From a virus: DNA of 23,774 nucleotides. The first letter of the stretch is position 1, and each line of letters begins with the position of its first letter. The notes below the pieces were generated by a model. It did not search any database and was not told the DNA's origin. It saw only the letters and a program-made list of their open reading frames with translations. The position numbers and the translations under genes are program-made. Below, piece after piece: positions 1 through 18,275 of the stretch. Where the stretch lies: positions 1 through 23,774 of IMG/VR virus record IMGVR_UViG_3300009441_000046. The stretch is one strand, 5' to 3'.

Positions 1-363
1 GAAGGTTTCTTCCATTATTTGGAATGGGGTAAAAACTTGATAGGGGTTAATCATGGTAACAAAATCAAGGCTCAGAAACTTGTTAGTGTAATGGCCAGAG
101 ATATGCCCACTGCTTGGGGAAGATGTACTTACAGAATGTGGGCGTTAGGTCATTGGCATCACCAGAACACTTTAGAGTTGGATGGTTGTATCGTTCAGAA
201 ATTTGGAACATTGGCACCCTCAGATTCTTACCACGCCGAACATGGCTATGGGTCCAGTGCTGTCATGGAAATGATTACTTTTAGAAAGTCAGGGGGTAGG
301 CATTCAACGTTAATTTATGAGATTGAAAAACCCGGAAATGAACCCGATATGAGGATAGAGTAA
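1..363 (+). CDS. Metallophosphoesterase, C-terminal part (gene starts before the window)
   Basis: The reading frame is open from the first base, so this is the last 120 residues of a longer protein; the first ATG at 19 is probably internal. Two metal-binding signatures of calcineurin-like phosphoesterases are visible: GVNHGN near residues 15-20, and GHWHH near residues 50-54, the classic GHxH motif. Similar phage proteins end with a YRMWxxGHxHH block followed by a GTLAPSDSYHAEHGY-like stretch, as here. In phages such enzymes are usually predicted DNA nucleases or phosphodiesterases of the replication region. The exact substrate cannot be told from this fragment. The stop codon overlaps the next start by one base (taATG), so the two genes are likely co-translated. 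Confidence 0.75.
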   Translation, partial: EGFFHYLEWGKNLIGVNHGNKIKAQKLVSVMARDMPTAWGRCTYRMWALGHWHHQNTLELDGCIVQKFGTLAPSDSYHAEHGYGSSAVMEMITFRKSGGRHSTLIYEIEKPGNEPDMRIE

Positions 364-572
364 TGGATGTAAAATCACAACAAGTAGGTGGGGACCACTA
401 CTTAAAAAATAACATTCAGCCTTGGGATATTGTTGACGAGTGGGATTTATGCTTTTATAGTGGTAATGCAATCAAGTATATCTTGAGAGACAAAGGAAAT
501 AAAAAAGAGGATTTGCTAAAAGCAATTCATTACTTAGAAAAGATGGTCAATGATTTGGAGGGTATAAAATGA
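363..572 (+). CDS. DUF3310 family protein
   Basis: This 69-residue protein has the DUF3310 (SaV-like) pattern: VGGDHY near the N-terminus, IQPWDIVDEWDLCFYSGNA in the middle, then IKYILR and a KEDLLKAIHYLEKM helix. The family is very common in phage replication and nucleotide-metabolism regions. Its biochemical role is not established, so none is claimed. The start overlaps the stop of the upstream phosphoesterase gene by one base, and its own stop overlaps the next ATG (ATGA). That is typical of a tightly coupled phage operon. The length is normal for the minimal form of the family. Confidence 0.88.
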   Translation: MDVKSQQVGGDHYLKNNIQPWDIVDEWDLCFYSGNAIKYILRDKGNKKEDLLKAIHYLEKMVNDLEGIK

Positions 573-889
573 ACACGTCATATTCTAAATATAATATGTC
601 TATTAAAATTAATTCAGAGTTATCACGCAATGAAACAATAATGGTTTATTGGTCGATTAGTGATGAGAACTTTGACGTAAGGGAGGAAGGAGATTGGGAT
701 GATATTACTGAAGACAATCTAATCGGTATCTATACTAGCTGGATAACGACGGCAGAAGTTCTAGCAGACTGCGATGACTTTCTTATCGAGTTAGACTCGC
801 ATGATGTTGACTGGCCAGACGTAGACCAAACGAGATTAGCAGCAATCGGCCAGAACGGTAACGATGGATTGGTCTACGAAAATGAGTAA
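569..889 (+). CDS. Hypothetical acidic protein
   Basis: This 106-residue protein is not recognised. It is strongly acidic (many Asp and Glu) and has no membrane segment or Cys/His cluster. Its first half (SIKINSELSRNETIMVYWSIS) looks beta-like, and residues 65-95 (TTAEVLADCDDFLIELDSHD and following) are probably helical. The start overlaps the DUF3310 stop as ATGA, and the next small gene starts inside its end, so it belongs to the same operon. An internal Met at residue 10 is an alternative start. The support is its length, its packing between overlapping genes and its plausible composition. An acidic protein here could be a host-protein inhibitor or DNA mimic, but that is only a guess. Confidence 0.7.
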   Translation: MNTSYSKYNMSIKINSELSRNETIMVYWSISDENFDVREEGDWDDITEDNLIGIYTSWITTAEVLADCDDFLIELDSHDVDWPDVDQTRLAAIGQNGNDGLVYENE

Positions 890-1019
890 GGGTTCAAAAC
901 GTAGGATTGAAAATAGGAAGAAGGTGGAAGATAATTACGATAAAATTGATTGGACTAAAAAATCTAATCAACCAAAATCAAGCGATAACCAACCACCATC
1001 GTTTAAGCAAAAGCTATAA
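882..1019 (+). CDS. Small basic phage protein (MSKGSKRR type)
   Basis: This 45-residue ORF begins MSKGSKRRIENRKKVEDNYD and ends PPSFKQKL. Tiny phage proteins starting M(S/G)KGSxxR and containing a later NYDxIxW-like segment are common near DUF3310 genes, and this one (NYDKIDW) fits. Function is unknown. It is basic at the N-terminus and Lys/Gln/Ser-rich at the C-terminus, so probably short and partly disordered. It overlaps the upstream gene by 8 bases and converges with the leftward gene at 968-1342, overlapping it by 52 bases. It is the last + strand gene before the leftward block. Confidence 0.6.
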   Translation: MSKGSKRRIENRKKVEDNYDKIDWTKKSNQPKSSDNQPPSFKQKL

Positions 1020-1342
1020 GTTTTTATGGCACCAGCGTTTATTAATGTGTCTATTATTTTATGTATATCTGCTTCTAAGTTATAGAAATCTGACTTGTCC
1101 ACAAAATGTAGGGCTAAGTCAGCGGCTGTTACAGCTGGTCCAGCTTTATTTATCACGTCTATCGCACCATTGACTAAATAAACACCCGCCAAAAATATAT
1201 CTATGGTTCTAGCAACTTCACGTTCTGCTTCTATGCTAAGTCTGTCAAATAAATCAGCACGAAGTGAGTCATCATGAAGACGTATTATTGTCAGAGTAAA
1301 GTGCTTTATCATTCTCTGTCTATTTTGACTAGATATTTTCAT
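968..1342 (-). CDS. Hypothetical protein, last gene of leftward operon
   Basis: This 124-residue protein is not recognised. The N-terminus is basic (MKISSQNRQRMIKHFTLTII). The rest is predicted mostly helical, with a hydrophobic patch near residues 50-65 (FLAGVYLVNGAIDVINKAG) that is too weak to call a membrane segment with confidence. A good Shine-Dalgarno (AGAGAGG on the minus strand, just right of 1345) supports the ATG at 1342. The start lies 14 bases inside the upstream 54-residue gene, so translation is probably coupled. Its 3' end overlaps the convergent + strand gene, and no terminator is visible between them. Confidence 0.65.
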   Translation of the reverse strand: MKISSQNRQRMIKHFTLTIIRLHDDSLRADLFDRLSIEAEREVARTIDIFLAGVYLVNGAIDVINKAGPAVTAADLALHFVDKSDFYNLEADIHKIIDTLINAGAIKTYSFCLNDGGWLSLDFG

Positions 1343-1493
1343 TTTTGTATACCTCTCTTTTAAAAGTTAATCTTTTCAACTCATGCTTATGATAGTCATA
1401 GATTTGATGGTCGTAAGCATCCCAAGCATCCAGTGCCTCTAAATTTCTCATTAATTTCTCAACTTTGAGTATCTGTTCTTCTGTTGTTTTCAT
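1329..1493 (-). CDS. Hypothetical 54-residue protein
   Basis: A short leftward ORF encodes MKTTEEQILKVEKLMRNLEA followed by an aromatic and His-rich stretch (LDAWDAYDHQIYDYHKHELK) and a basic tail. It is preceded on the minus strand by AAGGA, eight bases from the ATG at 1493, which is a convincing ribosome-binding site. The N-terminal half looks like one amphipathic helix. It overlaps the next leftward gene (968-1342) by 14 bases and lies 54 bases after the stop of the 184-residue gene, with a hairpin between. Function is unknown. The ribosome-binding site and the overlap argue that it is real. Confidence 0.55.
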   Translation of the reverse strand: MKTTEEQILKVEKLMRNLEALDAWDAYDHQIYDYHKHELKRLTFKREVYKNENI

Positions 1494-1508
1494 TTTATTA
1501 TCCTTATG

Positions 1509-1538
1509 TTCTTCTGCCTCATTGCTGAAGCAGAAGAA
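1509..1538. other. Intercistronic hairpin in the leftward operon
   Basis: TTCTTCTGC (1509-1517) pairs perfectly with GCAGAAGAA (1530-1538) around a 12-base loop. It sits between the stop of the 184-residue gene (1548) and the start of the 54-residue gene (1493). No T-run follows on the minus strand, so it is not a standard terminator. It may be a processing or stability element, or may slow access to the downstream AAGGA. Role is inferred. Confidence 0.45.
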
Positions 1539-1547
1539 GTTAGTTGT

Positions 1548-2102
1548 TTAAAAGTTGAAGTCATAAAAAGCGTAAGGACTTTCTTTAAGCATGAACTTCA
1601 TGCCTTTGTGGACCCACCAGTCTTTGCTGTTCTTTTTCTTTCTGATCCTAATAACATCTGCTTCGGGGTTGCTTTCGTAAGTAACTGTTTGAGCATGTTG
1701 GTTGGCAACGTGACCAGAAAATCCACCAACGTATGTTGTTAAGCCTTTAATGTTGTGGTCAGTTTTCATCCTGCGAATCTCGATGGTTTTATCGCTGATC
1801 ACTTTGACTATCTCAAATGCATCAACATCAGTGTACATATAATGAGACGCATGAGTGTAGTTGACTGCTATCTCATTTATTTTGAAAGTATGTTTCTTTC
1901 TTACTTCTTCCATATGAGCAGCATCACCCCAAGTTCCATCATCTAGAATTCTTTTGAAACTAGCCTCATTTTCAGCTGCGTCCTCTTCAGCTTCTTTTAA
2001 AGAATGAAACGTCTGGCTACCTTCACACCATCCCCAAATTCCTAAGCCTTTGGGTGAGTTAAATTCATATGTGCTTACAGTGTAGTGTGTTGTGTTGATC
2101 AT
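1548..2102 (-). CDS. Hypothetical protein, first gene of leftward unit 1
   Basis: This 184-residue protein is not recognised. It starts MINTTHYTVSTYEFNSPKGL and is rich in aromatic and His residues. Residues 35-75 (SLKEAEEDAAENEASFKRIL and on) look helical and acidic. The second half alternates beta-like segments (KTIEIRRMKTD, TTYVGGFSGHVANQHAQTVT) with a basic RIRKKKNSKDWW patch. There is no signal peptide. AAGGA lies nine bases before the ATG on the minus strand, supporting the start. It is the first gene behind the promoter and inverted repeat at 2125-2183. Functions typical of such leftward phage genes are host takeover or immunity, but nothing in the sequence shows which. Confidence 0.72.
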   Translation of the reverse strand: MINTTHYTVSTYEFNSPKGLGIWGWCEGSQTFHSLKEAEEDAAENEASFKRILDDGTWGDAAHMEEVRKKHTFKINEIAVNYTHASHYMYTDVDAFEIVKVISDKTIEIRRMKTDHNIKGLTTYVGGFSGHVANQHAQTVTYESNPEADVIRIRKKKNSKDWWVHKGMKFMLKESPYAFYDFNF

Positions 2103-2124
2103 TTTATTTTCCTTATCTTCTTTG

Positions 2125-2150
2125 TTAAGTTAGTTAAATTACTAACTTAA
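2125..2150. promoter_or_regulatory. 26-bp inverted repeat (operator or 5' stem-loop), copy 1
   Basis: TTAAGTTAGT (2125-2134) and ACTAACTTAA (2141-2150) are perfect inverted 10-base arms around TAAATT. The element starts at about the predicted transcription start of the leftward promoter, whose -10 box is at 2156-2161. It could be an operator for a dimeric repressor that blocks promoter clearance, or an mRNA 5' stem-loop that stabilises the transcript. The sequence alone does not decide between these. Confidence 0.75.
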
Positions 2151-2155
2151 GTACT

Positions 2156-2183
2156 ATCATACACTATGTAGTATTAATGTCAA
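2156..2183 (-). promoter_or_regulatory. Leftward sigma70-type promoter, copy 1
   Basis: Read on the minus strand: TTGACA (2178-2183, perfect -35), a 16-base spacer, then TATGAT (2156-2161, one mismatch to TATAAT). It points at the 184-residue gene at 1548-2102. The AAATTTGACATT context of the -35 box is shared with the + strand promoter at 3569-3596. Confidence 0.8.
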
Positions 2184-2194
2184 ATTTATTTTTA

Positions 2195-2245
2195 AAGTAA
2201 TATTGCAAAGAGGGCTAAGAGCTAACCCTCTTCACGATATTACTT
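2195..2245 (-). terminator. Long hairpin terminator after leftward unit 2
   Basis: Outer arms AAGTAATAT (2195-2203) and ATATTACTT (2237-2245) are perfectly complementary. Inner arms AAGAGGG (2208-2214) and CCCTCTT (2226-2232) are also perfect. The hairpin begins directly after the stop codon of the gene at 2246-2701. On the minus strand the stem is followed by an A/T-rich stretch with short T-runs rather than a clean run, so termination may be partial. It insulates the downstream promoter at 2156-2183. Confidence 0.65.
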
Positions 2246-2701
2246 CTAAGCAAACTTTTCTTGGTGATCTTTAATGTATGTTTCGCAAGCATCTATCGCC
2301 GCCATAAGACTATCGCAGCTGTGACCATCAACTCGTGGATCATCTTCAGATTCTTTATCCGTCATGTAGTGTTTTGACCATACTTCAAATTCAGGATTTC
2401 TGTGCATATATCTATCACCCCATTCATTTTCTTTTACGTCAATATCTAAAAAGTCGTGTTCCTTTGCCATCTTTTGTATTTTAGAAACGCGCTCAATGTC
2501 TTCATTGAGAGATTTCTTTCTGATTTTAAGGTGCTTATCTATTGCCGCTAAAGTTGTCTTTGCATCTTTGATTTGTGCTTCCCAGTATTTGATCCGTTCC
2601 GCAATGGGTTTACGTTGATCTTGCAGCGGCTTAATCTTATCTTCAGTAACAACTTTAGTCATTAAGCTTTTAACGCGCCCTAGTTCGTGTTGAATTGTCA
2701 T
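2246..2701 (-). CDS. Hypothetical coiled-coil protein
   Basis: This 151-residue protein begins MTIQHELGRVKSLM. Residues 15-80 are rich in Lys, Glu, Ala, Leu and Ile with heptad-like spacing (YWEAQIKDAKTTLAAIDKHL, LNEDIERVSKIQKMAKEH), suggesting a coiled coil. The C-terminal half has aromatic and acidic residues (NEWGDRYMHRNPEFEVWSKH) and ends in a helical DSLMAAIDACETYIKDHQE. The start at 2701 is chosen because a strong GGAGGT lies nine bases upstream on the minus strand. A further in-frame ATG at 2740 has no ribosome-binding site. It follows the 68-residue gene by one base. The family is not recognised. Confidence 0.75.
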   Translation of the reverse strand: MTIQHELGRVKSLMTKVVTEDKIKPLQDQRKPIAERIKYWEAQIKDAKTTLAAIDKHLKIRKKSLNEDIERVSKIQKMAKEHDFLDIDVKENEWGDRYMHRNPEFEVWSKHYMTDKESEDDPRVDGHSCDSLMAAIDACETYIKDHQEKFA

Positions 2702-2702
2702 G

Positions 2703-2909
2703 TTATAAGTACCTCCGTCGTGAAGAATGCTCGTTGTCATGTTCTTGTTTTTTGTCTTTTAAAATGTTAACCGCATCTCGTCTGCACTCTTCTTTAGTAT
2801 CATATTCTCCGTCTATTATTAAATCTCCCTGATGTTTGTGATCTGCGCTAATAAATCCTTCACTATCCACGGTGAGTGTTATGCCTGTTGCTGACCATAA
2901 GTTTCTCAT
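2703..2909 (-). CDS. Hypothetical 68-residue protein
   Basis: This small leftward gene begins MRNLWSATGITLTVDSEGFI and ends in a charged, basic stretch (KDKKQEHDNEHSSRRRYL). The first half looks like beta strands and the second like a helix (EECRRDAVNILKDKK). AAGGA sits nine bases before the ATG at 2909. A TTG six bases further upstream is poorly spaced and was not used. It is the first gene behind promoter/operator copy 2, and its stop is one base from the start of the next gene, so the two form one transcription unit. Function is unknown. Confidence 0.7.
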   Translation of the reverse strand: MRNLWSATGITLTVDSEGFISADHKHQGDLIIDGEYDTKEECRRDAVNILKDKKQEHDNEHSSRRRYL

Positions 2910-2925
2910 TATCAATATTCCTTTG

Positions 2926-2951
2926 TTAAGTTAGTTAAATTACTAACTTAA
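2926..2951. promoter_or_regulatory. 26-bp inverted repeat (operator or 5' stem-loop), copy 2
   Basis: It has the same perfect 10-base arms and TAAATT centre as the element at 2125-2150. It lies at the predicted 5' end of the leftward transcript from the -10 box at 2957-2962. Identical placement in both copies argues that one regulator or RNA-level signal acts on both units. Confidence 0.75.
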
Positions 2952-2956
2952 GTACT

Positions 2957-2984
2957 ATCATACACTATGTAGTATTAATGTCAA
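2957..2984 (-). promoter_or_regulatory. Leftward sigma70-type promoter, copy 2
   Basis: On the minus strand, TTGACA (2979-2984) is followed by a 16-base spacer and TATGAT (2957-2962). The only difference from copy 1 is one base just upstream of the -35 box. It drives the genes at 2703-2909 and 2246-2701, and lies back to back with the rightward terminase genes that start at 3065. Confidence 0.8.
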
Positions 2985-3064
2985 CTTTATTTTTGATTCA
3001 ATTGATATGTGTAAGCAATCGGTGCTACCATGTTTGTAGGAACATATATGAGAGGTAGGAATTG

Positions 3065-3562
3065 ATGGCTTATAAGAACTCTGAACGCAAAGCTATAGCT
3101 GATAAGGTTTGCGCTCTAATGCAGACAGGTATTCCGTGCGGTAAGGCTTGCGCTAAGGTGGGTATTCCTAAGACAACTTTCCTCGGTTGGACTAAAGGAA
3201 CAGGGGGTATCCCCGACCAGTATGCGCACGCGCAGGAAGCAATGATACATAGTATCGCTGAACAAATCATGGCTATAAGCGATGAAACGCCTGTAACCAT
3301 CGTTGACCAGAACGGTATCTCTCGCTATGACTCTGCGGCTGTTCAGCATCAGAGATTACAGGTTGACAGCCGCAAATGGCTGCTCAGTAAGATGATGCCC
3401 AAGGTGTACGGCGATAAAAACGTGCAGGAGATAACTGGACCGAACGGTGGACCAATTACATTGGCGGCGTTGGACCTGAAGAACTTATCAGATGAGGAAT
3501 TAGAAAGCATGGACTATCTCATCGGCAAGAGTACAGATATTGATGGGACTGTCATCGAATGA
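3065..3562 (+). CDS. terS: Terminase small subunit
   Basis: This 165-residue protein lies directly before the large terminase, as expected for the DNA-recognition subunit of the packaging motor. Residues 22-45 (GIPCGKACAKVGIPKTTFLG) form a predicted helix-turn-helix. The middle is helical (AMIHSIAEQIMAISDE), followed by QHQRLQVDSRKWLLSKMMPKVYGD, the hallmark of this phage TerS family. The C-terminal tail contains GPNGGPITL and an acidic segment (LSDEELESMDYLIGK) likely to contact TerL. The ATG at 3065 has AGAGG nine bases upstream. A TTG three bases earlier is also in frame but is less likely. TerS would bind the packaging site on the genome as a ring; no pac site was identified. Confidence 0.9.
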   Translation: MAYKNSERKAIADKVCALMQTGIPCGKACAKVGIPKTTFLGWTKGTGGIPDQYAHAQEAMIHSIAEQIMAISDETPVTIVDQNGISRYDSAAVQHQRLQVDSRKWLLSKMMPKVYGDKNVQEITGPNGGPITLAALDLKNLSDEELESMDYLIGKSTDIDGTVIE

Positions 3563-3568
3563 TTAAAT

Positions 3569-3596
3569 TTGACATTGTTTGTACTTCCTGTATAAT
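3569..3596 (+). promoter_or_regulatory. Perfect-consensus sigma70 promoter before terL
   Basis: TTGACA (3569-3574), a 16-base spacer and TATAAT (3591-3596) match the bacterial housekeeping consensus exactly. The predicted start of transcription is near 3603, only about 18 bases before the terL ATG. The -35 flank AAATTTGACATT also occurs in the leftward promoter at 2156-2183. Confidence 0.85.
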
Positions 3597-3620
3597 AATA
3601 ACTATTAAATACTTAATAAA

Positions 3621-5192
3621 ATGAGTGCAAAACATACGCCAGCAGCTGTAGCATTAGCGATTAAAAATGAGAAGGATAGACGGGCCGCCAGCGCATCGCT
3701 GTACGAATTTGTTAGGCAATGTTGGCATGTTGTAGAGCCGGGAGTGCCATTTGTGCACGGTTGGCATATACAAGAGATATGCGAGCATTTAGAAGCTATT
3801 TCTGCGGGAGAAATGCGTAAATTATTGATAAATATACCTCCAAGGCACTCTAAGTCTACGATTGTATCAGTTATTTGGCCAATGTGGGAGTGGTTGACAG
3901 ATCCAAGTCAAAAATTCCTCTGCGCGTCTTATTCTGGCTCACTTTCTATCCGTGACAACTTAAAAGCGCGTAGATTGATACTTTCTCCATGGTATCAGGA
4001 AAGATGGGGCCATATGTTCAAGTTAAGCGGCGATCAGAACGCTAAACAGCGGTTTGAGAACAGCGCAACAGGCTATCGTATAGCTACATCTGTAGGAGGT
4101 ACTGCAACAGGTGAAGGTGGCTCTAGACTCCTATTAGATGACCCTCATGCAGCACAAGAAGCTCAATCGGATGCTATACGTGAGTCTGCGTTAGATTGGT
4201 TCGACCAAGTGTGGTCTACACGATTAAATGACCCTAAACGTGACGCAATGGTCACAGTTATGCAGAGATTGCATGAAAGAGATATATCTGGCCATATATT
4301 AGAAGAGATAGGTGGCTGGGAACATTTAATGATACCAGCAGAGTATGACGGACGTAGACGTACAACTTCGTTGGGTGAGTACGACCCACGAAAAGAAAAA
4401 GGTGAGCTAATATGTCCAGAGAGATTCGGAGAGAAAGAAGTAGCCGACCTGAAGAAATTATTAGGTGTCTACGGTACAGCTGGACAGCTACAACAGGAGC
4501 CTAGCCCAGCAGAAGGCGGTATACTTAAGACAGGATATATTGAAATGTGGCCAAGCAAAAAAGGCTTACCACCCTTTGAATATATTTTACAAAGTTACGA
4601 TTGTGCCTTCACGGAGAAATCCACCGGAGACCCAACTGCGTGCACTGTTTGGGCAATATTTACCCATGCAGGTCAACGAAACGTAATGTTAATTGACGCA
4701 TGGGATGAACATTTAAGTTATCCTGATTTAAGAGCTAGAGCCATAAAAGATTGGACAACAGAATATGGTGGCATGAGTAAAGACAGTCAATTTTCTAGAG
4801 CACGCCGACCTGATAGAATATTAGTAGAAGCTAAGGCAAGTGGGCAGTCATTACTCCAAGATTTACGCCTTGCCAATGTACCAGCAATAGGGTATAATCC
4901 CGGTAACGCGGATAAAGTTTCTAGAGCACATCAGGCTGCGCCAACATTAGAACTTGGTATGGTGTGGATACCTGAGTCAAAACAAAATCCCGGTCATTAT
5001 GTAAGCTGGGCAAATGACTTTGTAAAGGAGTTAGCTAAATTTCCTGTGGCATCTCATGATGATTATGTTGACACATTTACCCAAGCAATAATTTACTTTA
5101 AGAATGATAGATGGTTTGAGCTACCGCAAGCAATAGATCCAGATGAGCGTAAAGCCTTACCGTTTAAAGCAGTTAACCCATACGCAGCTTAG
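3621..5192 (+). CDS. terL: Terminase large subunit
   Basis: This 523-residue protein is the ATPase/nuclease motor that packages and cuts phage DNA. The N-terminal ATPase has a Walker A-like loop IPPRHSKST (residues 72-80, Lys78) and a Walker B LLLDDP (catalytic acidic pair at 173-174). The C-terminal RNase H-like nuclease has its first acidic residue in SYDCAF (Asp327), the ILVEAKASGQSLLQDL block typical of phage terminases in the middle, and a final SHDDYVD motif (Asp480/481/484). Length and order are normal for the family. No Shine-Dalgarno is visible before the ATG; the leader is AT-rich and very short. It follows terS by 58 bases and is followed 10 bases later by the giant polyvalent protein. 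Confidence 0.97.
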   Translation: MSAKHTPAAVALAIKNEKDRRAASASLYEFVRQCWHVVEPGVPFVHGWHIQEICEHLEAISAGEMRKLLINIPPRHSKSTIVSVIWPMWEWLTDPSQKFLCASYSGSLSIRDNLKARRLILSPWYQERWGHMFKLSGDQNAKQRFENSATGYRIATSVGGTATGEGGSRLLLDDPHAAQEAQSDAIRESALDWFDQVWSTRLNDPKRDAMVTVMQRLHERDISGHILEEIGGWEHLMIPAEYDGRRRTTSLGEYDPRKEKGELICPERFGEKEVADLKKLLGVYGTAGQLQQEPSPAEGGILKTGYIEMWPSKKGLPPFEYILQSYDCAFTEKSTGDPTACTVWAIFTHAGQRNVMLIDAWDEHLSYPDLRARAIKDWTTEYGGMSKDSQFSRARRPDRILVEAKASGQSLLQDLRLANVPAIGYNPGNADKVSRAHQAAPTLELGMVWIPESKQNPGHYVSWANDFVKELAKFPVASHDDYVDTFTQAIIYFKNDRWFELPQAIDPDERKALPFKAVNPYAA

Positions 5193-5202
5193 GAAAGTAC
5201 AA

Positions 5203-8200
5203 ATGGCTTTAAAAGATGATTTAGAATTAAACAAGCCAATGCGAACCCCATCGCACTCCAAGAAATCTCATGTTGTTAAAACGACAGTAGACGGTAAACC
5301 AAAAATAATTAGATTTGGTGAACAGGGGGCTAAGACATCTGGAAAACCTAGCCCTAACGATTCAGCAAAAACAAAAGCAAAGCGTAAATCATTTAAAGCA
5401 AGGCACGCTAAAAATATAGCAAAAGGTCCAGCATCAGCGGCATACTGGTCAGATAAGGTCAAATGGCGCGATGGTGGTTATGTAGACGGTTACCCTACAG
5501 ACGGAGAGATCGCAGACATAGGCGCTGATTTTTTATCTGGTGTTGCAGGACCTATTGCAGCTGCTGGCGTATCTTTAGCAGAACAAACATTTACCGATAA
5601 CAACATAGAAACATTAAAAGCAAATAACGAAAAGTACAATAGGGCATTAAACTATACCCCAAGAACTGAGACTGGTTACAACGTCAATCAGGCCGCGATG
5701 AAAACATTGGGAGAAGGCGTTACCGCAGTAACGGACGCATACACCGAAAACAAAGATAACTTGGGCTATGTCCCAGACGTAATTGACGCGGGCGTTGATT
5801 ATTACAATACCATGGACCCACGCAACCAGTTTTTAGCTGGCAATGTTTTAACTGTGGGCGAGGTTTTGCCCCTAGGTAAAGCCGCTTCTATGGCAAAAAG
5901 AGCGAGTAAAAACAAAGCTGATACAAATGCTATAGCAGGAGCAGCAGCTAACGTTTTACCAGAAGAAGCCAACATTCCACTACAGACTAGATTAGAGGAG
6001 ATGGGCGGCAAGTACAACATGGATGCTTACCATGGTTCCCCTAAGTCTTTTGATAAGTTTGACCCTAATTATGTAGGAACGGGAGAAGGCGCGCAGCAAT
6101 ATGGTCATGGCGCTGCTTATCTCAGCGAAAGCAGTGACTTCGCTAAAACTTTCACTCCGCGTGATATGGAGTATGAAAGAGCGCTTGGCTTGAAATATTC
6201 AGCCCTTGAAAAGGCTGGCGATTATGAGGGGGCGCAGATTTATGAATATGCCATGCAACATTACACTCCATCAGAAATAAGAGCAATGGCTATAGACCCT
6301 GATAGTGTTCTTTATGATATGCGAGAAAGGGCTATGGATATAGCCGATGAGATTGACGAGATACCAGTCAAGGATTTCTCTTTATATAAAGTGCAGGTAG
6401 ACGATTATAAAGTAGATAGAATGCTTGACTTGGACAAACAAGTAATTGACCAAGATATTATACTTGGATTACTAGAGCCAGCAATACCCGGAATAGCCGC
6501 AGCAGCTAAAAGATATAAAGACATAGATATAGATTTAAAGAAACGTAAAAACATGAAAGCGCCGGGAGCAAAAAAACTTCAAGCCGAGGCAAATAGAATA
6601 GCCAAAAAATTCCCGCAGCTAAACCAAACAGGGATGAGTTTTTATCGCGCAACAGCTTTTAATAAAACAGCTGGAGACAGTAGAGGTCAAGCGGCGGCTT
6701 CTTTACTTCTTAACGACTTAGGGATTGCTGGGAATAAATATATTGACCCATATTTTGAGAATGGAAAGACTAGAAACTTTGTAGTATTTGACGAGGTTGA
6801 CGCAAAGATACTTAGTCGTAACGGTAAGGACATTAAACGTGAGTACACAGATGTAGAGGTCCGTGGTTCTTTTGATGACGGTAAAATTACACCAACAGGA
6901 GTTACAGCTGCACGAGATGTTGCTGAACTGAAACTAGCGCAAGAGCTTACTGAAGACAAGAAACTTTCAGAAATGTTAGGCGACGCTAATGTAGTAGGTA
7001 AAGGCAATAGGATTGTTACTACTCAAGCCGACAGGACGAGGATCAGAGACGGCGCTGGTCCGGGATACCCTATAATTGGCCAAGAGTACTATGAGATGGC
7101 AGAAAAGTACTATGCCATGACGGGTAAAATAATACCAAGACTAAACATAGGCAGTAATGATTATCCTGTATGGGCGGTTGATGATAGTGGAGTCGCTACT
7201 GCTCTTATGAATAATCTTAAGAAGCAAGGCGATATGCTTATACCGATGATTGGAGGCCCTGAGCAACTTATAACAAACTCTATAGTTTTTGGCAGACTAA
7301 AGGGAGCTTTCTTCGACGCTGTTGACAACGGTAAGTTGAAAAAAGATTTAGCAAAAAAGATGAACATTAATCTAAAAGCCGCTACAGGAAAAGATTTAGA
7401 TATTAGAGACCCAGCATCGTGGGCCGAGCTTGAGACTACCTTTGATGGCCGAGCCATATTAGGCGGTATGATGAGTGGTACAAAAACTAGATTAGGTAAG
7501 AAAGACCTTAAGGCACTTCGCACCTCAATAAATACACAGCGTAAACTAGACGGATTAAAACCACTTGCAATGAAACCTCCTACGGTACCTTTAGGTGGTA
7601 AAAACAGTCAAATATTTAAATTTGACGATATGTTAGAAGAAGCAACAGAGTCTTCACTAAGGGGAGCTGATACTTTTTCGGTAGGTCCGAATGTAGTGGT
7701 ACCAAACAGAAAACTTGAACAAGTTTCAGCTAGTGATATGCACTCTGGCTTTGAATATCAAATAATGGGAGAAAGATTGCCCGGCTCTGTAATACAAACT
7801 CCATTGGAAATTTCACATCCAGCCTTTATGGAGTTTGTAAAATATAAAGAGAGGGTAACAGGGAAGCCTTTTCCATATGGAATGAATGCTAGGATGGGAA
7901 TAGCAGAAGATAACAAAGGTGGATTTCCTTCTGGTTTACCCAGCCAAGAAATAACAGAAGAATATTTAAAGTGGTTACAAGCTAACGGTTACGCTGAAGG
8001 CGGAGCTGTAGACGCTGAAGAGTATAATAAAGAAAAAATAGACATGCTGGCTAACCAGTTAATTGAGGGTTTTGCTGAAGGCGGCTATGTAGAGGATATG
8101 GCTAATTATGCCCTTGGTCCAGTTGACGTGGTAGCTGATGCGGTTTCTGGAATTGTTGGTCCTCCTATATCGGCAGCGATGTCTGGGGCAGAGCAACTGT

Positions 8201-10419
8201 TTACTGATAACACTCTAGCTGAAATGCAAGCGACAAAAGAGATAAGAGATGATGCTCTTAATTACAATGCTAGAACACCAAAAGGCATAGCAATTAATCG
8301 TCAGTTCAATGAGGACATGTCACAGGGAATTGAAACGTTAGCAAGAACGTATAACGAAAATACAGATAGATTAGGTCCGATACCTGACATGATTGATTAT
8401 GGTGTTACTGAATATCAAAAGCTACAACCTGAAACACAATTTGCTTTAGGCAACGCACTAGGAACGGCTGAATTGGCGGCAATGGGTGTGGCTGGTCAGC
8501 AAGTTCGTAGGGGAATGCAACAACGAGCTGATTCCGAAAAAATTAATAGAGCAGCTGATAACGTACCGACAGACGATGCCTATTCTAATGTACGCGAGAC
8601 ATTAGAAGAGATGGGCGCAAGACAGCTAATGGTTAAGGATAAAGGCGGCAATTGGGCTAAAGATAATTTGGACTACCAGCTTGAACCATTAAAAATTGGA
8701 AAATCAAAAGCGTTAAGCAAATGGGTAGATCAAAAAATCGTACCCTACATTAGAAACAATATGGGTACGGGTAGAAACGATCCATTAGTTGCGTCTGCGC
8801 TTGAAGAACAACCATCTTACTTTAATCCAGATATTCGCCGTGCGGAAAGAAATCCATCAGAAGGGCCACTCAATAACGCTGAACTCTTAAGGTCTAGCCT
8901 GATAATCGAATACCCACAAAGTGTTGGGTTGTCTGGTGGATTGACTCCGACTGCTGCTAACAGGATAGAGAGGACCGGTGATGATTTAATAGGAGTGTAC
9001 ACAGTTGATAGTCTTCTTAATCCTAAAAATATTATTGAACCTTCATTCCAGACTTCAACAAATCGGCCTACGGGACCTAATTCATTATTTGAACAAACTA
9101 GAAAAGAGCTTCAATTTGACATGTGGATAGCTAATGCACCCGATGATTTATTGAGGGAGGCTCCATTATCTGATCAAATTTTTGACGAATATCGCGTAGA
9201 ACTGGATGATATTACAGATGAAATGGTCAAGCAGAAGCTAATAAAAGACAATCCTTGGCTTGCAAACGCCGACCCATCGACTAAAATTAATGTATTAGAT
9301 GACTTTTATGATGGGTCCTCCGTAGCAAGCGATTTACAGCTCAATGCATTAATGGATGGACTACAAGAGCTAACCTATACAGATAATAACCTTCCGAGTA
9401 AGTTAGCTCTTACTGATGAACAGTTAAGTAAATTAACTATTGAGCAAGCATCAAAAAGGGTAGGCGAACTTAATATTTACAAAGAGAAAGATGCTTTCAA
9501 GAGCAATCTTAAAGATAAACCTGTACGCTTCAATGACCCAGAATTACAGCTAACTAATTTTAGTCAAGACAAAGGGATGAAGTGGGTAGACCTTAATGAA
9601 ACAGATAGCGCTGCTGGAATGGGAGCTTGCACCGCCATTGGCAAAGCTGGCGGTTGGTGTACGATGGCCAAGCCAGAGGCTCAGGCTTACACTTCCGATG
9701 ACAGTCAACTCATTGTCGGACTAGATGGGGATGGGAGACCTCACATACAAATAGGAGCCCAAGTTATACCTGAAGATTTTTTATTCAAAGGCTCTCCTAG
9801 CCAGATAAATATAAATCAGATAATGCCCGTCGAGAATACTTTTGGTGGCAGTAAAGCTCAAAGTTATATAAAGCGCGACCCAGATTATGAAATTAAAATT
9901 AATAAATCATTGGCATCTTTATTAAACGATATGGATAAAACCAACGAAATTGAGATAGGTCGTAGGGCGTCTCGCAACGCTGCAATAAAAGGCTTCGACA
10001 TATACGATACTAAATATAGCGGGTTCGTTAGATCGTTCTTTTTTGATCAAAGAAATCCATCAGAAGCAGACAAGGCCATTGCGCGACAAGGGCTTGATTT
10101 TTTTAATGGAGTGGGAACGAACGCTTATGAAGACGCTGCAGCGCTTGTCGTTGGCACTAAAAAACTTTTAAAAGGAAACAATAAAAGATTTTTAACCCAC
10201 AAGGAATTACAACCTTACATATTAAAAGCATTAGAGAAAGTTGCTCCATCAAAATCTGTAGACGGCTTTGCTGAAGGCGGAGCTGTAGAATATGATAAAG
10301 AAAAAATAGATATGTTGGTTAAAGAACTTCAAAACTTTGCCGAAGGTGGTATAGTTGAAGAAGAATATGATCCAATCCGTATAAACCATAGCGCCAACTT
10401 ATTATTGCAGGAGATTTAA
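5203..10419 (+). CDS. Giant polyvalent protein: ADP-ribosyltransferase and PcfJ-like domains
   Basis: A 1738-residue protein lying between terL and the portal. The start at 5203 is chosen for the AGGAAAG just upstream; an in-frame ATG at 5143 lies inside terL. Order of parts: a basic N-terminus with FKARHAKNIAKG and AAYWSDKVKW (about 60-85, resembling DUF6321 segments); linker module 1 (91-269, after GGYV); a predicted ADP-ribosyltransferase domain of the polyvalent class (273-540), with YHGSP (His277), GTGEGAQQYGHGAAYLSE (Tyr306) and VVFDE (Asp530/Glu531); an unnamed domain (about 570-920); an AEGG cassette (930-963); linker module 2 (960-1139); a helical region; a PcfJ-like domain with CTAIGKAGGWC (Cys1476, Cys1486) and GRPHIQI (His1514); and a second AEGG cassette (1689-1718). 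Polyvalent proteins are thought to enter the host with phage DNA. Cargo status and enzyme activity here are inferred. Confidence 0.85.
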   Translation: MALKDDLELNKPMRTPSHSKKSHVVKTTVDGKPKIIRFGEQGAKTSGKPSPNDSAKTKAKRKSFKARHAKNIAKGPASAAYWSDKVKWRDGGYVDGYPTDGEIADIGADFLSGVAGPIAAAGVSLAEQTFTDNNIETLKANNEKYNRALNYTPRTETGYNVNQAAMKTLGEGVTAVTDAYTENKDNLGYVPDVIDAGVDYYNTMDPRNQFLAGNVLTVGEVLPLGKAASMAKRASKNKADTNAIAGAAANVLPEEANIPLQTRLEEMGGKYNMDAYHGSPKSFDKFDPNYVGTGEGAQQYGHGAAYLSESSDFAKTFTPRDMEYERALGLKYSALEKAGDYEGAQIYEYAMQHYTPSEIRAMAIDPDSVLYDMRERAMDIADEIDEIPVKDFSLYKVQVDDYKVDRMLDLDKQVIDQDIILGLLEPAIPGIAAAAKRYKDIDIDLKKRKNMKAPGAKKLQAEANRIAKKFPQLNQTGMSFYRATAFNKTAGDSRGQAAASLLLNDLGIAGNKYIDPYFENGKTRNFVVFDEVDAKILSRNGKDIKREYTDVEVRGSFDDGKITPTGVTAARDVAELKLAQELTEDKKLSEMLGDANVVGKGNRIVTTQADRTRIRDGAGPGYPIIGQEYYEMAEKYYAMTGKIIPRLNIGSNDYPVWAVDDSGVATALMNNLKKQGDMLIPMIGGPEQLITNSIVFGRLKGAFFDAVDNGKLKKDLAKKMNINLKAATGKDLDIRDPASWAELETTFDGRAILGGMMSGTKTRLGKKDLKALRTSINTQRKLDGLKPLAMKPPTVPLGGKNSQIFKFDDMLEEATESSLRGADTFSVGPNVVVPNRKLEQVSASDMHSGFEYQIMGERLPGSVIQTPLEISHPAFMEFVKYKERVTGKPFPYGMNARMGIAEDNKGGFPSGLPSQEITEEYLKWLQANGYAEGGAVDAEEYNKEKIDMLANQLIEGFAEGGYVEDMANYALGPVDVVADAVSGIVGPPISAAMSGAEQLFTDNTLAEMQATKEIRDDALNYNARTPKGIAINRQFNEDMSQGIETLARTYNENTDRLGPIPDMIDYGVTEYQKLQPETQFALGNALGTAELAAMGVAGQQVRRGMQQRADSEKINRAADNVPTDDAYSNVRETLEEMGARQLMVKDKGGNWAKDNLDYQLEPLKIGKSKALSKWVDQKIVPYIRNNMGTGRNDPLVASALEEQPSYFNPDIRRAERNPSEGPLNNAELLRSSLIIEYPQSVGLSGGLTPTAANRIERTGDDLIGVYTVDSLLNPKNIIEPSFQTSTNRPTGPNSLFEQTRKELQFDMWIANAPDDLLREAPLSDQIFDEYRVELDDITDEMVKQKLIKDNPWLANADPSTKINVLDDFYDGSSVASDLQLNALMDGLQELTYTDNNLPSKLALTDEQLSKLTIEQASKRVGELNIYKEKDAFKSNLKDKPVRFNDPELQLTNFSQDKGMKWVDLNETDSAAGMGACTAIGKAGGWCTMAKPEAQAYTSDDSQLIVGLDGDGRPHIQIGAQVIPEDFLFKGSPSQININQIMPVENTFGGSKAQSYIKRDPDYEIKINKSLASLLNDMDKTNEIEIGRRASRNAAIKGFDIYDTKYSGFVRSFFFDQRNPSEADKAIARQGLDFFNGVGTNAYEDAAALVVGTKKLLKGNNKRFLTHKELQPYILKALEKVAPSKSVDGFAEGGAVEYDKEKIDMLVKELQNFAEGGIVEEEYDPIRINHSANLLLQEI
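5473..6009 (+). repeat. Linker module 1 in the giant protein (residues 91-269)
   Basis: It starts at GGYV and ends at LEEMG. It shares with module 2 (8080-8619) the ordered landmarks SG(V/I)xGP, EQxFTDN, ALNYxxRTxxG, YxENxDxLGxxPDxIDxGVxxY and QFxxGNxLxxxE. The distance from GGYV to LEEMG is almost identical in both (172 and 173 residues). The similarity is clear in protein but diverged in DNA, so the duplication is old. Confidence 0.85.
7990..8091 (+). repeat. AEGG/KEKIDML cassette 1 (residues 930-963)
   Basis: YAEGGAV, then a KEKIDML helix, then FAEGGYV. The same arrangement occurs at 10267-10356. About 20 bases around the first AEGGAV are identical between the two cassettes (7993-8012 and 10270-10289). 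The cassette closes the first half of the giant protein. Confidence 0.85.
8080..8619 (+). repeat. Linker module 2 in the giant protein (residues 960-1139)
   Basis: This is the second copy of the linker module, beginning at GGYVED and ending at TLEEMGA. In copy 1 the ADP-ribosyltransferase domain follows directly; here a different helical and PcfJ-like region follows. The module therefore looks like a standard adaptor placed before different effector domains. Confidence 0.85.
10267..10356 (+). repeat. AEGG/KEKIDML cassette 2 (residues 1689-1718)
   Basis: FAEGGAV, then KEKIDMLVKEL, then FAEGGIV, mirroring cassette 1. It closes the second half of the protein and is followed by a short tail (EEEYDPIRINHSANLLLQEI). 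Confidence 0.85.
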
Positions 10420-10420
10420 T

Positions 10421-12982
10421 GTGGCTGAAGAAGTAGAAGTAGAAGTAGAAGAAACAACAATGATAGAACTTCCGATAGAAGAACTGGAAGTTGAAGATAC
10501 CGAAGACGGTGGGGCGTTCATTCGCATGGAAAGTGTTTCTATACGCGAAGGCTCTAGTCACTTTGATAACATTGTGGAAGAGGTTGACCAAAGCCTTTTG
10601 ACATCATCTATCGCTGACTTAATGACTAAGATAGAGCGCGACAAAGAAGCGCGTCAAAAAAGAGACCAGCAGTATGAAGAAGGTTTAAGAAGGACAGGTC
10701 TTGGTGACGATGCACCGGGCGGAGCGCAGTTTAGCGGTGCCAACAAAGTTGTTCACCCTATGCTAGTTGAAGCCTGTGTTGATTTTTCTGCAAGATTTAT
10801 TAAAGAAGTATTCCCGCCAACTGGCCCAGTAAAAAGTAAAATTATTGGAGAAGCAGATAAGGGTAAAGTAAGCAAAGCTCAACGTAAGACTGAGTTTATG
10901 AATTGGCAGACAACTGAACAGATGGTCGAGTTCCGTTCTGAGCTTGAACAGCTTAGTACACAGCTTCCATTGGGTGGCGGTCAGTACATGAAGTTTATGT
11001 GGAACTCACGTTTCATGCGTCCAACTTCTGAGTTCGTTCCTATTGATGATATCTACCTTCCTTTTTCGGCTACTAACTTTTATACAGCTGAACGTAAAAC
11101 TCATGTTCAGTATGTTACGCAAATGGAATATGACAAACGTGTTGAAGCTGGAATGTATTCGGATGTGGACCTACCATCTCCAACAGACCCAGAATATAGT
11201 TTAGCTGAACAGGCTAACGAAAAAATTGAAGGTAAGCAGAACACGTCTTACAATGAAGATGGCCTACGAACTATATTTGAAATCTACACCTACATGGACT
11301 TTGATGACGGTGAAGGTTTAGCTCCTTATATTCTTTCTGTTGATAAATCTTCAGATAAACCTTTATGTCTTTACCGTAACTGGGAAGAAGACGACAAGAA
11401 ACAAAAAGAACTGCATTGGATTGTAGAGTTCCCGTTCGTACCTTGGCGCGGTGCTTATCCGATTGGTTTAACACACATGATTGGCGGATTGAGTGGCGCT
11501 GCAACAGGTGCGCTAAGAGCGTTACTTGACTCAGCTTACATTCAAAACGTACCCACGTTGTTGAAATTAAAAGGTGGTCCAAACGGACAAACTTTAAATG
11601 TTCAACCTACAGAAATTGTTGAGATGGAAGGCGGCGCGCTTATTGATGACGTGCGCAAATTAGCTATGCCTTTACCGTTTGCTGGACCAAGCCCGACATT
11701 ATTTCAACTCTTAGGATTTTTAGTAGACGCTGGTAAGGGTGTTGTTCAAACATCTTTTGAAAAATTTAATGACCAAAATCCTAATGCTCCTGTTGGAACA
11801 ACGATGGCTATTATTGAGCAAGGGATGGTTGTTTTTAGCTCAATTCATTCTCGCTTGCATTCATCTATGGCTAGAAGTTTTGGTATTCTTCATCGTATTA
11901 ATAGCATGTACTACACCCAAGAAGAACTTGATGCTTTAGATGCTGGGTTAGATATATCGGTAGAAGACTTCGATGGTCCTTCTGATGTTGTACCTGTTAG
12001 TAATCCTGCTATATTTAGTGAAGCTCAACGTTTTGCGCAGATACAAGCTATCATGCAACGTGCTCAAACTAATCCGCAAATGTACGATGCTTATGCTATT
12101 GAGGAAATGTTCCTTAGAACTTTAAAAGTTCCGCCTCAAGAAGTATTGAACCCATTACCCGGATCTGAAGATAGAGACCCTGTTAGTGAAAACGTAGCCG
12201 CTGCATTAGGTCAGCCTGTCTATGTTCTTCCTAATCAAGACCATATGGCTCACTTACAAGTCCATCTACCATTTTTAAAATCACCTATGTTTGGTTCAAG
12301 CCCAGCTATAGCCAATACATATATGTATCCAATGGCTCTACATTTAAGAGACCATCTGTTAAATTATTATTTATCAGAAGCACATAACGCTATAGATAAA
12401 GCTCAATCACAAGAACTCATACCAGAAGAAGCTGAAGAACAAGTAGGCGTTATATTAAAAGTTCAACAATTTATAGAACAACAGCTTGGTGAATTTGGTC
12501 AAGAGCTTGCTCAAATAACTGAAATGGCGCAACAATTTAAACCATCACGCCTTGTAGAAAAAGAAAGCGATGCAATGCAAATTGCGCAGCTTAGTGCTCA
12601 ACTTAAACAAGGAGAACTTGCACAGCGTGCAGAACTTGAAGCGGCTAAACTTCAACTAGACCAAGTTAAACTAGAACAAAGTAATCAGATGGAGCAGTTT
12701 AAAATGCAACAAACTGCGGAACTTGAACGGGCTAAGTTTGCAGTTAAAGAGGAAGAACGTAAAGAGAAGGCTGAGTTAGCTGGAATGAGAGAAGTTTCAC
12801 AGACACAAAGAAATAATATAAATGAAATGTCTGATAGTGACCGTCAACAAAATCATGAGCTAAACGAGAACGCACGCTTAACAGAAGATTTGGCAGCTAG
12901 AGAACGAATGAATACTCAAGATAACCAAACAGCTAGAGATATAGCGTTGCTTAAAGAACTAAACGACAAGTCTGGATTTTAG
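10421..12982 (+). CDS. Portal protein
   Basis: This 853-residue protein forms the dodecameric ring at the capsid vertex through which DNA enters and leaves. It begins at GTG with AGGAG seven bases upstream, one base after the previous stop. The N-terminus is very acidic (about residues 1-30). The IADLMTKIERDKEARQKRDQ segment, GAQFSGANKVVHPMLVEACV and FIKEVFPPTGPVKSKI match the large portals of short-tailed phages. The Asn-rich NDQNPNAPVGTTMAIIEQG block and the region following it fit the crown and wing. Residues from about 700 to 853 are a long Gln/Glu/Lys/Ala coiled coil (QIAQLSAQLKQGELAQRAEL and on), comparable to the C-terminal barrel of P22-type portals. Gene position after terminase supports the call. 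Confidence 0.9.
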   Translation: MAEEVEVEVEETTMIELPIEELEVEDTEDGGAFIRMESVSIREGSSHFDNIVEEVDQSLLTSSIADLMTKIERDKEARQKRDQQYEEGLRRTGLGDDAPGGAQFSGANKVVHPMLVEACVDFSARFIKEVFPPTGPVKSKIIGEADKGKVSKAQRKTEFMNWQTTEQMVEFRSELEQLSTQLPLGGGQYMKFMWNSRFMRPTSEFVPIDDIYLPFSATNFYTAERKTHVQYVTQMEYDKRVEAGMYSDVDLPSPTDPEYSLAEQANEKIEGKQNTSYNEDGLRTIFEIYTYMDFDDGEGLAPYILSVDKSSDKPLCLYRNWEEDDKKQKELHWIVEFPFVPWRGAYPIGLTHMIGGLSGAATGALRALLDSAYIQNVPTLLKLKGGPNGQTLNVQPTEIVEMEGGALIDDVRKLAMPLPFAGPSPTLFQLLGFLVDAGKGVVQTSFEKFNDQNPNAPVGTTMAIIEQGMVVFSSIHSRLHSSMARSFGILHRINSMYYTQEELDALDAGLDISVEDFDGPSDVVPVSNPAIFSEAQRFAQIQAIMQRAQTNPQMYDAYAIEEMFLRTLKVPPQEVLNPLPGSEDRDPVSENVAAALGQPVYVLPNQDHMAHLQVHLPFLKSPMFGSSPAIANTYMYPMALHLRDHLLNYYLSEAHNAIDKAQSQELIPEEAEEQVGVILKVQQFIEQQLGEFGQELAQITEMAQQFKPSRLVEKESDAMQIAQLSAQLKQGELAQRAELEAAKLQLDQVKLEQSNQMEQFKMQQTAELERAKFAVKEEERKEKAELAGMREVSQTQRNNINEMSDSDRQQNHELNENARLTEDLAARERMNTQDNQTARDIALLKELNDKSGF

Positions 12983-13369: not shown

Positions 13370-13563
13370 ATACAGACTTAAAACTTTTGAATCTTATCAA
13401 AGCTAATCAAGCGGAGTTTGCGCTTGAAGCATTGAAAAGACCTCAGAAACGCGATACTTTTGAGTATGGGTATCGCGTGGGTATGGTTGCTGGACATGAA
13501 GCAGCTATAGACATACTTTTAAACTTGATAGATGAGGATAGGAATGGAAACGATGACTTATGA
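13366..13563 (+). CDS. Hypothetical 65-residue protein
   Basis: A helical 65-residue protein with FEYGYRVGMVAGHEAAIDIL in the middle and an acidic tail (DEDRNGNDDL). Similar short proteins carrying FEYGxRVGxxxGxxxAL are common beside phage portal and scaffold genes, but no function is assigned to them. Its ATG overlaps the TGA of the seven-codon minicistron, and its own end overlaps the start of the co-chaperonin gene by 11 bases. This fits a tightly coupled chain of small genes. An alternative start is not apparent. Confidence 0.65.
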   Translation: MNTDLKLLNLIKANQAEFALEALKRPQKRDTFEYGYRVGMVAGHEAAIDILLNLIDEDRNGNDDL

Positions 13564-13960
13564 GGATGCACTTGTAGAGGCTTTTCCAGCGGCAGACGCT
13601 GGTATTCGGCCTTTCGGTAGCCGCGTTCTGGTTCAAATACGAACAGCTAAGACACAAACAGCTGGCGGTATTATATTAACAACAGACACAACAGACACTG
13701 AAAAGTGGAACACTCAAGTAGCTAAGGTCATTTCACTTGGTCCGTTAGCTTTCAAAAATCGTAATACGATGGAAAGTTGGCCAGAAGGTGATTGGTGCAA
13801 AGAAGGTGATTTTGTACGTGTAGCTAAGTACGGAGGCGATAGATGGGAAATTCCTCTTCCTGAGTCTTCTACTGGTGAGACTGCGATGTTTGTTATTTTT
13901 AACGACCTTGACATTATGGGTAGCGTTGCTAACCCACTTAAAGTCAAGGCTTTCATCTGA
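13553..13960 (+). CDS. GroES-like co-chaperonin (Cpn10 family)
   Basis: About 135 residues. GIRPFGSRVLVQI matches the first strand of Cpn10 proteins. It is followed by a mobile loop ending AGGIIL (residues 37-42), the segment GroES uses to bind GroEL. Later come VAKVISLGP, EGDFVRVAKYGGDRWEIP and FVIFNDLDIMGSV, in the Cpn10 order. A 15-residue insertion (AFKNRNTMESWPEGD) before the GDFV strand makes it longer than GroES, as in phage relatives such as T4 gp31. It should cap the host GroEL and favour capsid-protein folding. Starts at 13532 and 13544 are also in frame; 13553 has AGGA nine bases upstream. No GroEL gene is seen. The position just before scaffold and capsid fits this role. Confidence 0.85.
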   Translation: MTYEDALVEAFPAADAGIRPFGSRVLVQIRTAKTQTAGGIILTTDTTDTEKWNTQVAKVISLGPLAFKNRNTMESWPEGDWCKEGDFVRVAKYGGDRWEIPLPESSTGETAMFVIFNDLDIMGSVANPLKVKAFI

Positions 13961-17090: not shown

Positions 17091-17130
17091 TCTCCCTGAC
17101 TTTATTTTTAAAGTCAGGGAGACTTTTTTA
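17091..17130 (+). terminator. Rho-independent terminator after the capsid gene
   Basis: A perfect 14-base stem (17091-17104 with 17109-17122), a TTTT loop and a C-T6 tail. It begins eight bases after the capsid stop codon. It should end or strongly reduce transcription, separating the head genes from the following structural genes. Confidence 0.93.
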
Positions 17131-17594: not shown

Positions 17595-18248
17595 ATGAGA
17601 CCAGTAAAAATAGGACCTTTGACTCCTAGTGATACCAGCACTGTTTGGTTTAATCCTGCGTCACTGACAAGTACGGGAGCAGCAGTTGCTCCTTTGCAGA
17701 CCAGTACGTTAGATAATCTAGCTCATAGAATCACCTTAACCGCACCCGTCCAAGCATCATTGGCGGCGATTGCGTTCACTGTGGTTGGCACTGATGCAGC
17801 TGGTAATCCTCAGACTGAAGTTATTGCAGCTGGACCAGTCAGCGGAGCAACGGTAAATAGTACTAAGTTCTTCCTAAGCGTTTTGACAATACAACCTAGC
17901 GCAACTATGGGTACTGGTGCTGGCGCAAAAGTATTAGCGGTAGGTTTATTGGCTGAAGCTATTGGTTACTGGGTTAATTTAGAAAATACCATGTCTGCTC
18001 CTATGGTAATGGTTAACGTAACTGGGACAATTAACTACACTGTTCTTCAAACACCAGCCAACATCTTTGATGAAGTAGGAACTGCTTATACCGCTCTGGG
18101 AATAGCTATTCCCAATATGAGCGCGGTAACAACTCAAGTTCTAGCAAATGGTGGCGAAAGCTGCCGAGCAATTATGCTTAGAGTTAATTCATTCACAGCT
18201 GGAGCCACGATAACCGCACACATAAATAATTCAGGTGGCGGTTACTAA
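17595..18248 (+). CDS. Beta-rich phage structural protein
   Basis: This 217-residue protein is rich in Thr, Ala, Val and Asn and poor in charged residues. It contains an Ig-like or beta-sandwich pattern (APVQASLAAIAFTVVGTDAA, IGYWVNLENTMSAPMVMVNV). No signal peptide is apparent. A good AAGGAG precedes the ATG, and the gene lies 10 bases after the previous one, so the two are likely made together. Such pairs beside the capsid gene are commonly annotated as hypothetical structural proteins. A role on the capsid surface or at the connector is plausible but not shown. No family could be named. Confidence 0.58.
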   Translation: MRPVKIGPLTPSDTSTVWFNPASLTSTGAAVAPLQTSTLDNLAHRITLTAPVQASLAAIAFTVVGTDAAGNPQTEVIAAGPVSGATVNSTKFFLSVLTIQPSATMGTGAGAKVLAVGLLAEAIGYWVNLENTMSAPMVMVNVTGTINYTVLQTPANIFDEVGTAYTALGIAIPNMSAVTTQVLANGGESCRAIMLRVNSFTAGATITAHINNSGGGY

Positions 18249-18275
18249 TAACTATTAAATACTAGGAATACTATT

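Follow-up and report, generated by a model that had tools for sequence, protein, structure and literature searches.

Small accessory genes in a group of uncultured phages are headed by copies of a 74-bp block that unites a promoter close to consensus, a short dyad at the predicted start of the transcript and a leader with a ribosome-binding site. This module is real, conserved and mobile; its parts are ordinary and their combination is unusual. In our preferred reading, which we consider somewhat probable, it is a 5' control module whose dyad would serve as a 5'-terminal stabilizing hairpin of the mRNA and whose copies would also provide homology for cassette exchange. Two such blocks are present in the stretch of DNA analyzed here (the window), a complete IMG/VR virus record of 23,774 bases, and copy counts given for the window refer to this record only.

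Genomic context

The window covers part of the genome of a tailed phage that has not been cultured. It starts with rightward genes (1-1019), comprising the end of a DNA repair exonuclease gene, a DUF3310 gene and two small genes, followed by a leftward group of small genes without assigned function (968-2909). Thereafter, the small and large terminase, a 1738-aa protein, the portal, a GroES-like protein, the major head protein and the tail proteins are encoded rightward. The small terminase is of the Sf6 type, and the large terminase (TerL) belongs to phrog_38, with Roseobacter phages CRP-902 and CRP-901 as nearest isolates (45% identity); the first 8 kb of the window had no DNA match among 50,697 phage records.

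The 1738-aa protein (5203-10416, plus strand), encoded between TerL and portal, matches a family (phrog_7595) within its N-terminal 80 residues only and has no Pfam match. It contains repeated GFAEGG segments as well as YHGSPKSFDKF...YGHGAAYLSE, which, by eye, we take to resemble ADP-ribosyltransferase-like parts of polyvalent phage proteins. A gene for a GroES/Cpn10-like co-chaperonin (13532-13957, plus strand; phrog_3188, PF00166) lies amid the head genes, and a strong terminator with a 14-bp stem and a T run (17091-17122, plus strand) is located past the major head protein gene. Furthermore, the near-identical 21-nt sequence TA(A/C)TAATAACTATTAAATACT occurs on the plus strand in the TerL start region (3593-3613) and at 18243-18263; the latter copy lies between genes ending at 18248 and starting at 18276, and a promoter is absent there.

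The two blocks and the genes behind them

The blocks form a direct repeat (2120-2193 and 2921-2994) of 74 nt with a single mismatch and a spacing of 801, which reproduces the 73 of 74 identical bases and the offset given in a preliminary description of this DNA. On the minus strand, both read TTGACA-TTAATACTACATAGTG(16)-TATGAT-AGTAC-TTAAGTTAGT-AATTTA-ACTAACTTAA, and then continue through a short leader, which includes a ribosome-binding site, to the ATG. Their promoters have 11 of 12 consensus bases and are the best leftward ones within positions 1-12000; they would presumably be used by the host sigma-70 polymerase. The 26-bp inverted repeat with 10-base arms (10-6-10), also described before together with the TTGACA-16-TATGAT promoter, was recovered in each block at the predicted start: it begins 5 nt past the -10 hexamer, its AAG lies 7 nt past this hexamer, about where a transcript is expected to begin, and its center is at about +11 (the first A of AAGTTAG, 7-8 bases past the -10 hexamer, was assumed to be the start). 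The inverted repeat occurs twice in the window with zero mismatches and in none of 100 dinucleotide shuffles, even with three mismatches allowed.

Block B (2921-2994, minus strand; TTGACA 2984-2979, TATGAT 2962-2957) heads the unit MRNLW-MTTSI, and block A (2120-2193, minus strand; TTGACA 2183-2178, TATGAT 2161-2156) heads the unit MINTT-MKTTE-MKISS. The predicted 5'-terminal mRNA hairpin corresponds to the inverted repeat at 2926-2951 in block B (-9.2 kcal/mol, z -2.75) and at 2125-2150 in block A (-9.2 kcal/mol, z -3.28). As the flanks of the two blocks have nothing recognizable in common, only the control region is duplicated, in agreement with the preliminary description. The leftward units are indeed separate, being parted by an intrinsic terminator (2235-2205, minus strand) that ends unit B 22 nt ahead of the -35 hexamer of block A and is kept in the relative G001.

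MRNLW (68 aa; 2703-2909, minus strand) belongs to no family; its relatives are MINGW (about 66%) and MRNLW of G001 (74%). Its end is overlapped by the gene for MTTSI (164 aa; 2246-2740, minus strand), which has weak matches to coiled-coil families and was seen in the window only. MINTT (184 aa; 1548-2102, minus strand), absent from the other block-carrying contigs, matches phrog_19789 (unknown function) with its C-terminal half. MKTTE (54 aa; 1329-1493, minus strand) and MKISS (124 aa; 968-1342, minus strand) are of unknown function; the latter is 93% identical in G002, G003 and G005, and its gene is convergent and overlapping with the rightward genes. A family search yielded nothing informative on the function of the small block-headed genes.

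Block copies in related phages

Exact and degenerate pattern scans over 2.9 million viral contigs revealed the block in just seven contigs beyond the window (G001-G007, IMG/VR), all from the same phage group and with one to three copies each. The blocks head four unrelated families of small leftward genes (in the relatives they precede MRNLW/MINGW, MRNFE and MEKLY genes), and each block seen in full is followed by an open reading frame. Written leftward with B for the block, the cassette order is B-MRNLW-MTTSI-terminator-B-MINTT-MKTTE-MKISS in the window; B-MRNLW-terminator-MKIDL-dyad-B in G001, where the contig ends inside the second block; B-MINGW-B-MRNFE-terminator-B-MEKLY-MKTTE'-MKISS in G005; P2-MINGW-B-MRNFE-terminator-B-MEKLY-MKTTE'-MKISS in G002; and P2-MINGW-B-MRNFE-terminator-MKSYK-P3-MSTRA, continuing into a leftward operon with the exonuclease gene, in G006 and G007. 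P2 and P3 denote promoters that differ in sequence from that of the block but are accompanied by a similar hairpin. A single block, at the contig end, is present in G003 and in G004. As terminators sit just upstream of several blocks, outside the repeat and themselves not repeated, the complete module consists of promoter, 5' hairpin, gene(s) and terminator.

Similar DNA was not found in the phage collection. TerL relatives with 77-88% identity have neither the block nor a promoter-dyad pair of this type, and the leader is absent from the exonuclease relatives L152-L154 and L158. The pattern AAGTTAGT-N6-ACTAACTT was present in 44 viral stretches; those beyond the phage group were mostly coding or unrelated, and among them a clear promoter lies directly upstream in L008 only. 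Another candidate, L164, was rejected as a chance match past a gene end.

The exonuclease operon of G006 and G007 (L141, 8580-12069) is directed leftward and follows the cassettes. In G002, G003, G005 and the window, by contrast, the exonuclease gene is directed rightward and converges with them. This difference is a local rearrangement between close relatives.

Junctions at the block edges

In two comparisons, homology breaks within 1-3 bp of the upstream edge of a block. The window and G001 have the terminator after the first unit in common (88%), and their homology ends at window position 2191, with the edge of block A at 2193; beyond this point, block-MINTT follows in the window, and MKIDL and then a new block follow in G001. 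Similarly, G002 is about 99% identical to G006 and to G007 until its position 6579, and the block begins at 6580; beyond it, G002 has block-MEKLY, and G006 and G007 have MKSYK. In both cases, gene content therefore switches at the edge of a block, and recombination would be the likely cause of these breakpoints. All contigs are metagenome assemblies, and three of them (G001, G003 and G004) terminate within or next to a block. As G002 resembles G007 on the left and G003 on the right and all three originate from one metagenome (G002 and G006 are from different ones), G002 may be a within-sample assembly chimera of G003-like and G007-like sequence, and some junctions may be assembly effects; the window/G001 junction and the order in G005 are independent of G002.

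The two block copies of the window differ at 1 of 73 positions, compared with 2-3 differences from the G004 block (the small terminase genes of G004 and the window are 99.0% identical) and 7-8 from the block of G001. Since they are closer to each other than to either of these and have the changed start TATGATAGTAC in common, block A appears to have been recently copied from block B, or both were homogenized, in the window's own lineage. Such recent copying is not general, because the MEKLY blocks of G005 and G002 resemble each other more than their neighbors.

Hairpin in RNA or dyad in DNA

The preliminary description had left the choice between a common regulator of both units and a protective 5' stem-loop; the architecture of the cassettes and the switch of gene content at the edges of blocks are additions to it. 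The relatives favor the stem-loop, and the regulator is retained as a rival. With modest confidence, and on comparative sequence evidence, we favor a 5'-terminal mRNA stem-loop over a repressor operator, because the hairpin is kept under a different promoter, its stem pairs change on both sides and the MSTRA hairpin differs in sequence. The block leaders and the P2 leader open with AAGUUAGY, and the first base of the hairpin falls on nt 1-3 of the predicted transcript. The folding energy of the hairpin is -9.2 kcal/mol for the window and between -5.6 and -9.2 kcal/mol for the relatives, better than at least 97% of shuffles with the exception of MSTRA (93.5%). The MINGW leader of G002, G006 and G007 possesses the same hairpin and leader under a different promoter. 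All eight leaders form the inner six pairs of the core stem, as GTTAGY/RCTAAC or as its counterpart in MSTRA, and two stem pairs are changed on both sides (UA is replaced by CG in two leaders and GC by AU in one). The covariation score of the eight leaders exceeds all 500 shuffles and all slid controls; the covarying pairs themselves are two, in three leaders, a number reached by 28 of 500 shuffles (5.6%) with sequences that are few and closely related. In the MSTRA leader, a 7-bp stem of partly other bases, with one G-U pair and a 5-nt loop, occupies the same position at the 5' end (-5.6 kcal/mol), and a hairpin of this type at that position arises in 0.8% of shuffles. Judged from the two pairs changed on both sides and from the MSTRA shuffle test, it is the structure of the hairpin rather than its sequence that is conserved in this small sample.

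Other functions of the hairpin were considered and rejected. A terminator or attenuator does not fit, as the dyad lacks a U run behind it and a genuine terminator is located upstream. A stem of 6-10 bp is short for an RNase III site, and no Rfam family matched at the gathering score. The A+U richness of the hairpin (-5.6 to -9.2 kcal/mol) speaks against the stabilizing reading.

The main rival, which we regard as rather unlikely, is that the dyad is an operator: a dimer of identical repressor or activator subunits, with its gene in the host or in another part of the phage genome, would bind from about +1 to +22 and co-control all block-bearing units. The 10-bp arms are perfectly symmetric and their center is at about +11, as it is in many operators, and in G001 and G005 the arms extend to 14 bp and cross the expected start site; the upstream part of these arms is not needed by an RNA hairpin and counts against the RNA reading. 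In unrelated DNA, perfect palindromes with the same core also directly follow a -10 hexamer ahead of an XRE-type HTH gene in L008 and a TetR gene in L163. In L008 (9420-9441), TTGACA-17-TATAGT is followed by AGTAAGTTAGT-TAACTA-ACTAACTTACT, and the HTH gene adjoins a type I restriction methylase-like gene, so this dyad is probably the autoregulatory operator of a phage-borne restriction locus; in L163 (6527-6552, Oceanobacillus), a perfect dyad past a -10-like hexamer ahead of the TetR-family gene is probably an autoregulatory operator as well. Both loci, picked by searching for perfect dyads, suggest that dyads with such a core can be autoregulatory operators. Furthermore, a gene for a small HTH_3 protein precedes that of the primase in the relative G006; a connection of this protein to the dyad is hypothetical. 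However, half-site sequence and spacing, constant in the two copies of the window, are not constant if the MRNFE, MINGW-P2 and MSTRA leaders are included, and they vary even within one genome (GTTAGC-6-GCTAAC versus GTTAATC-5-GATTAGC in G006), and a G-U type pair breaks the symmetry of the DNA. No regulator gene was recognized in the window, as the preliminary description had stated, and a search for a host regulon found the 20-base dyad only twice in 84,980 bacterial and archaeal genomes, in unrelated places; no host regulon with the exact site is therefore evident.

Two further readings appear improbable to us. The hairpin could be the site of an RNA-binding protein or act on the start of translation, as phage translational repressors do, and thus exert post-transcriptional control of the small genes. 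In every leader it closely precedes the Shine-Dalgarno stretch, and all block copies have the loop AATTTA, including those with a changed stem; yet the ribosome-binding site lies outside the stem, the loop of the MSTRA leader differs, and constancy of the loop says little at such low divergence. It is equally doubtful that the block is an evolutionary repeat only, duplicated by recent recombination in the window's lineage, with a dyad that has no role beyond the promoter: the closeness of the two window copies, compared with the blocks of near-identical G004 and of G001, is what this would predict, but the stem core is kept with compensatory changes in diverged copies and under a different promoter, and an open reading frame stands behind every complete block. 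The stabilizing-hairpin reading has its own difficulty in TerL, whose promoter is of the same class (TTGACA-16-TATAAT, 3569-3596, plus strand; 12 of 12 consensus bases) and is followed by just a weak short dyad (0 to -0.9 kcal/mol) without a stable hairpin.

According to the stabilizing-hairpin reading, the block would be a self-contained 5' control module, consisting of a near-consensus sigma-70 promoter, a stem-loop of 6-10 bp at the transcript start or 1-2 nt from it and a ribosome-binding site, that is placed before different small accessory genes in units closed by terminators. The hairpin would act in the RNA, where a 5'-terminal stem-loop would shield the transcript from 5'-end-dependent decay, and it would keep the leader uniform whatever gene comes next. 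Since related genomes have this module in common and may hold more than one copy of it, it would offer homology for the gain, loss and exchange of cassettes.

Comparison with known systems

PeSL (promoter early stem-loop) cassettes are reportedly shuffling promoter-stem-loop units. Compared through citing text and titles, they appear to be the closest known kind. They were described for T4-like phages (Arbiol et al. 2010, Comeau et al. 2014, both as cited in PMC4503421); in the citing text, these repeated promoter-stem-loop units are held to mediate shuffling, and the title of Comeau et al. calls them promoter-terminator motifs. As far as these sources go, both systems intersperse small accessory genes with a repeated unit that unites a promoter and a stem-loop, and in both, differences in gene content between relatives are flanked by repeats (here with the assembly caveat for G002). 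In contrast, the PeSL stem-loop would end the upstream gene, whereas the repeated stem-loop described here is downstream of the -10 hexamer, in the 5' leader, without a T run, and terminators are separate and outside the repeat. Moreover, the phage studied here is not T4-like by its terminase, and one to three copies were seen.

In cluster K mycobacteriophages, SAS/ESAS elements combine 17-bp imperfect repeats separated by 4-13 bp spacers (ESAS) with a 13-bp translation-start repeat in 11-19 copies (PMC3203893). As here, inverted repeats that vary by subcluster directly precede a start-site motif and stand before some of the non-structural genes, which are not the same in every genome; ESAS are, however, not described as holding a promoter, which is fused to the dyad in our blocks. 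The 17-bp dyad repeats of cluster O mycobacteriophages (more than 30 copies with invariant arms, many inside genes; PMC4351075) likewise represent short perfect dyads that recur across a phage genome and have indels between copies, but they are not fused to a promoter.

For the hairpin itself, the model is the stem-loop at the mRNA 5' end that hinders 5'-end-dependent decay (Emory 1992, Bouvet 1992, Bricker 1999, cited in PMC3997798), a principle established in E. coli with ompA and papA according to the references given there. To the extent these are summarized in the citing paper, the likeness would consist in a stem-loop that begins no more than a few nt from the predicted 5' end and a ribosome-binding site outside the stem. 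The blocks differ in having an A+U-rich stem in the transcript of a phage.

Significance

We tentatively propose, as a possibility, that a phage group that is not T4-like has evolved a portable expression unit, made of a promoter, a 5'-terminal stabilizing hairpin and a ribosome-binding leader, that is copied onto newly acquired genes; these would thereby obtain a strong promoter and a decay-resistant transcript at once, and selection on RNA structure would maintain the hairpin even when the promoter is exchanged. If the dyad is an operator instead, the block marks a regulon whose regulator remains to be found. If the stabilizing hairpin is the right reading, promoter-stem-loop shuffling cassettes arose outside the T4-like phages as well, with a hairpin that protects the new transcript rather than ending the previous one, and the block would be both a marker for accessory genes in this uncultured phage group and a portable leader.
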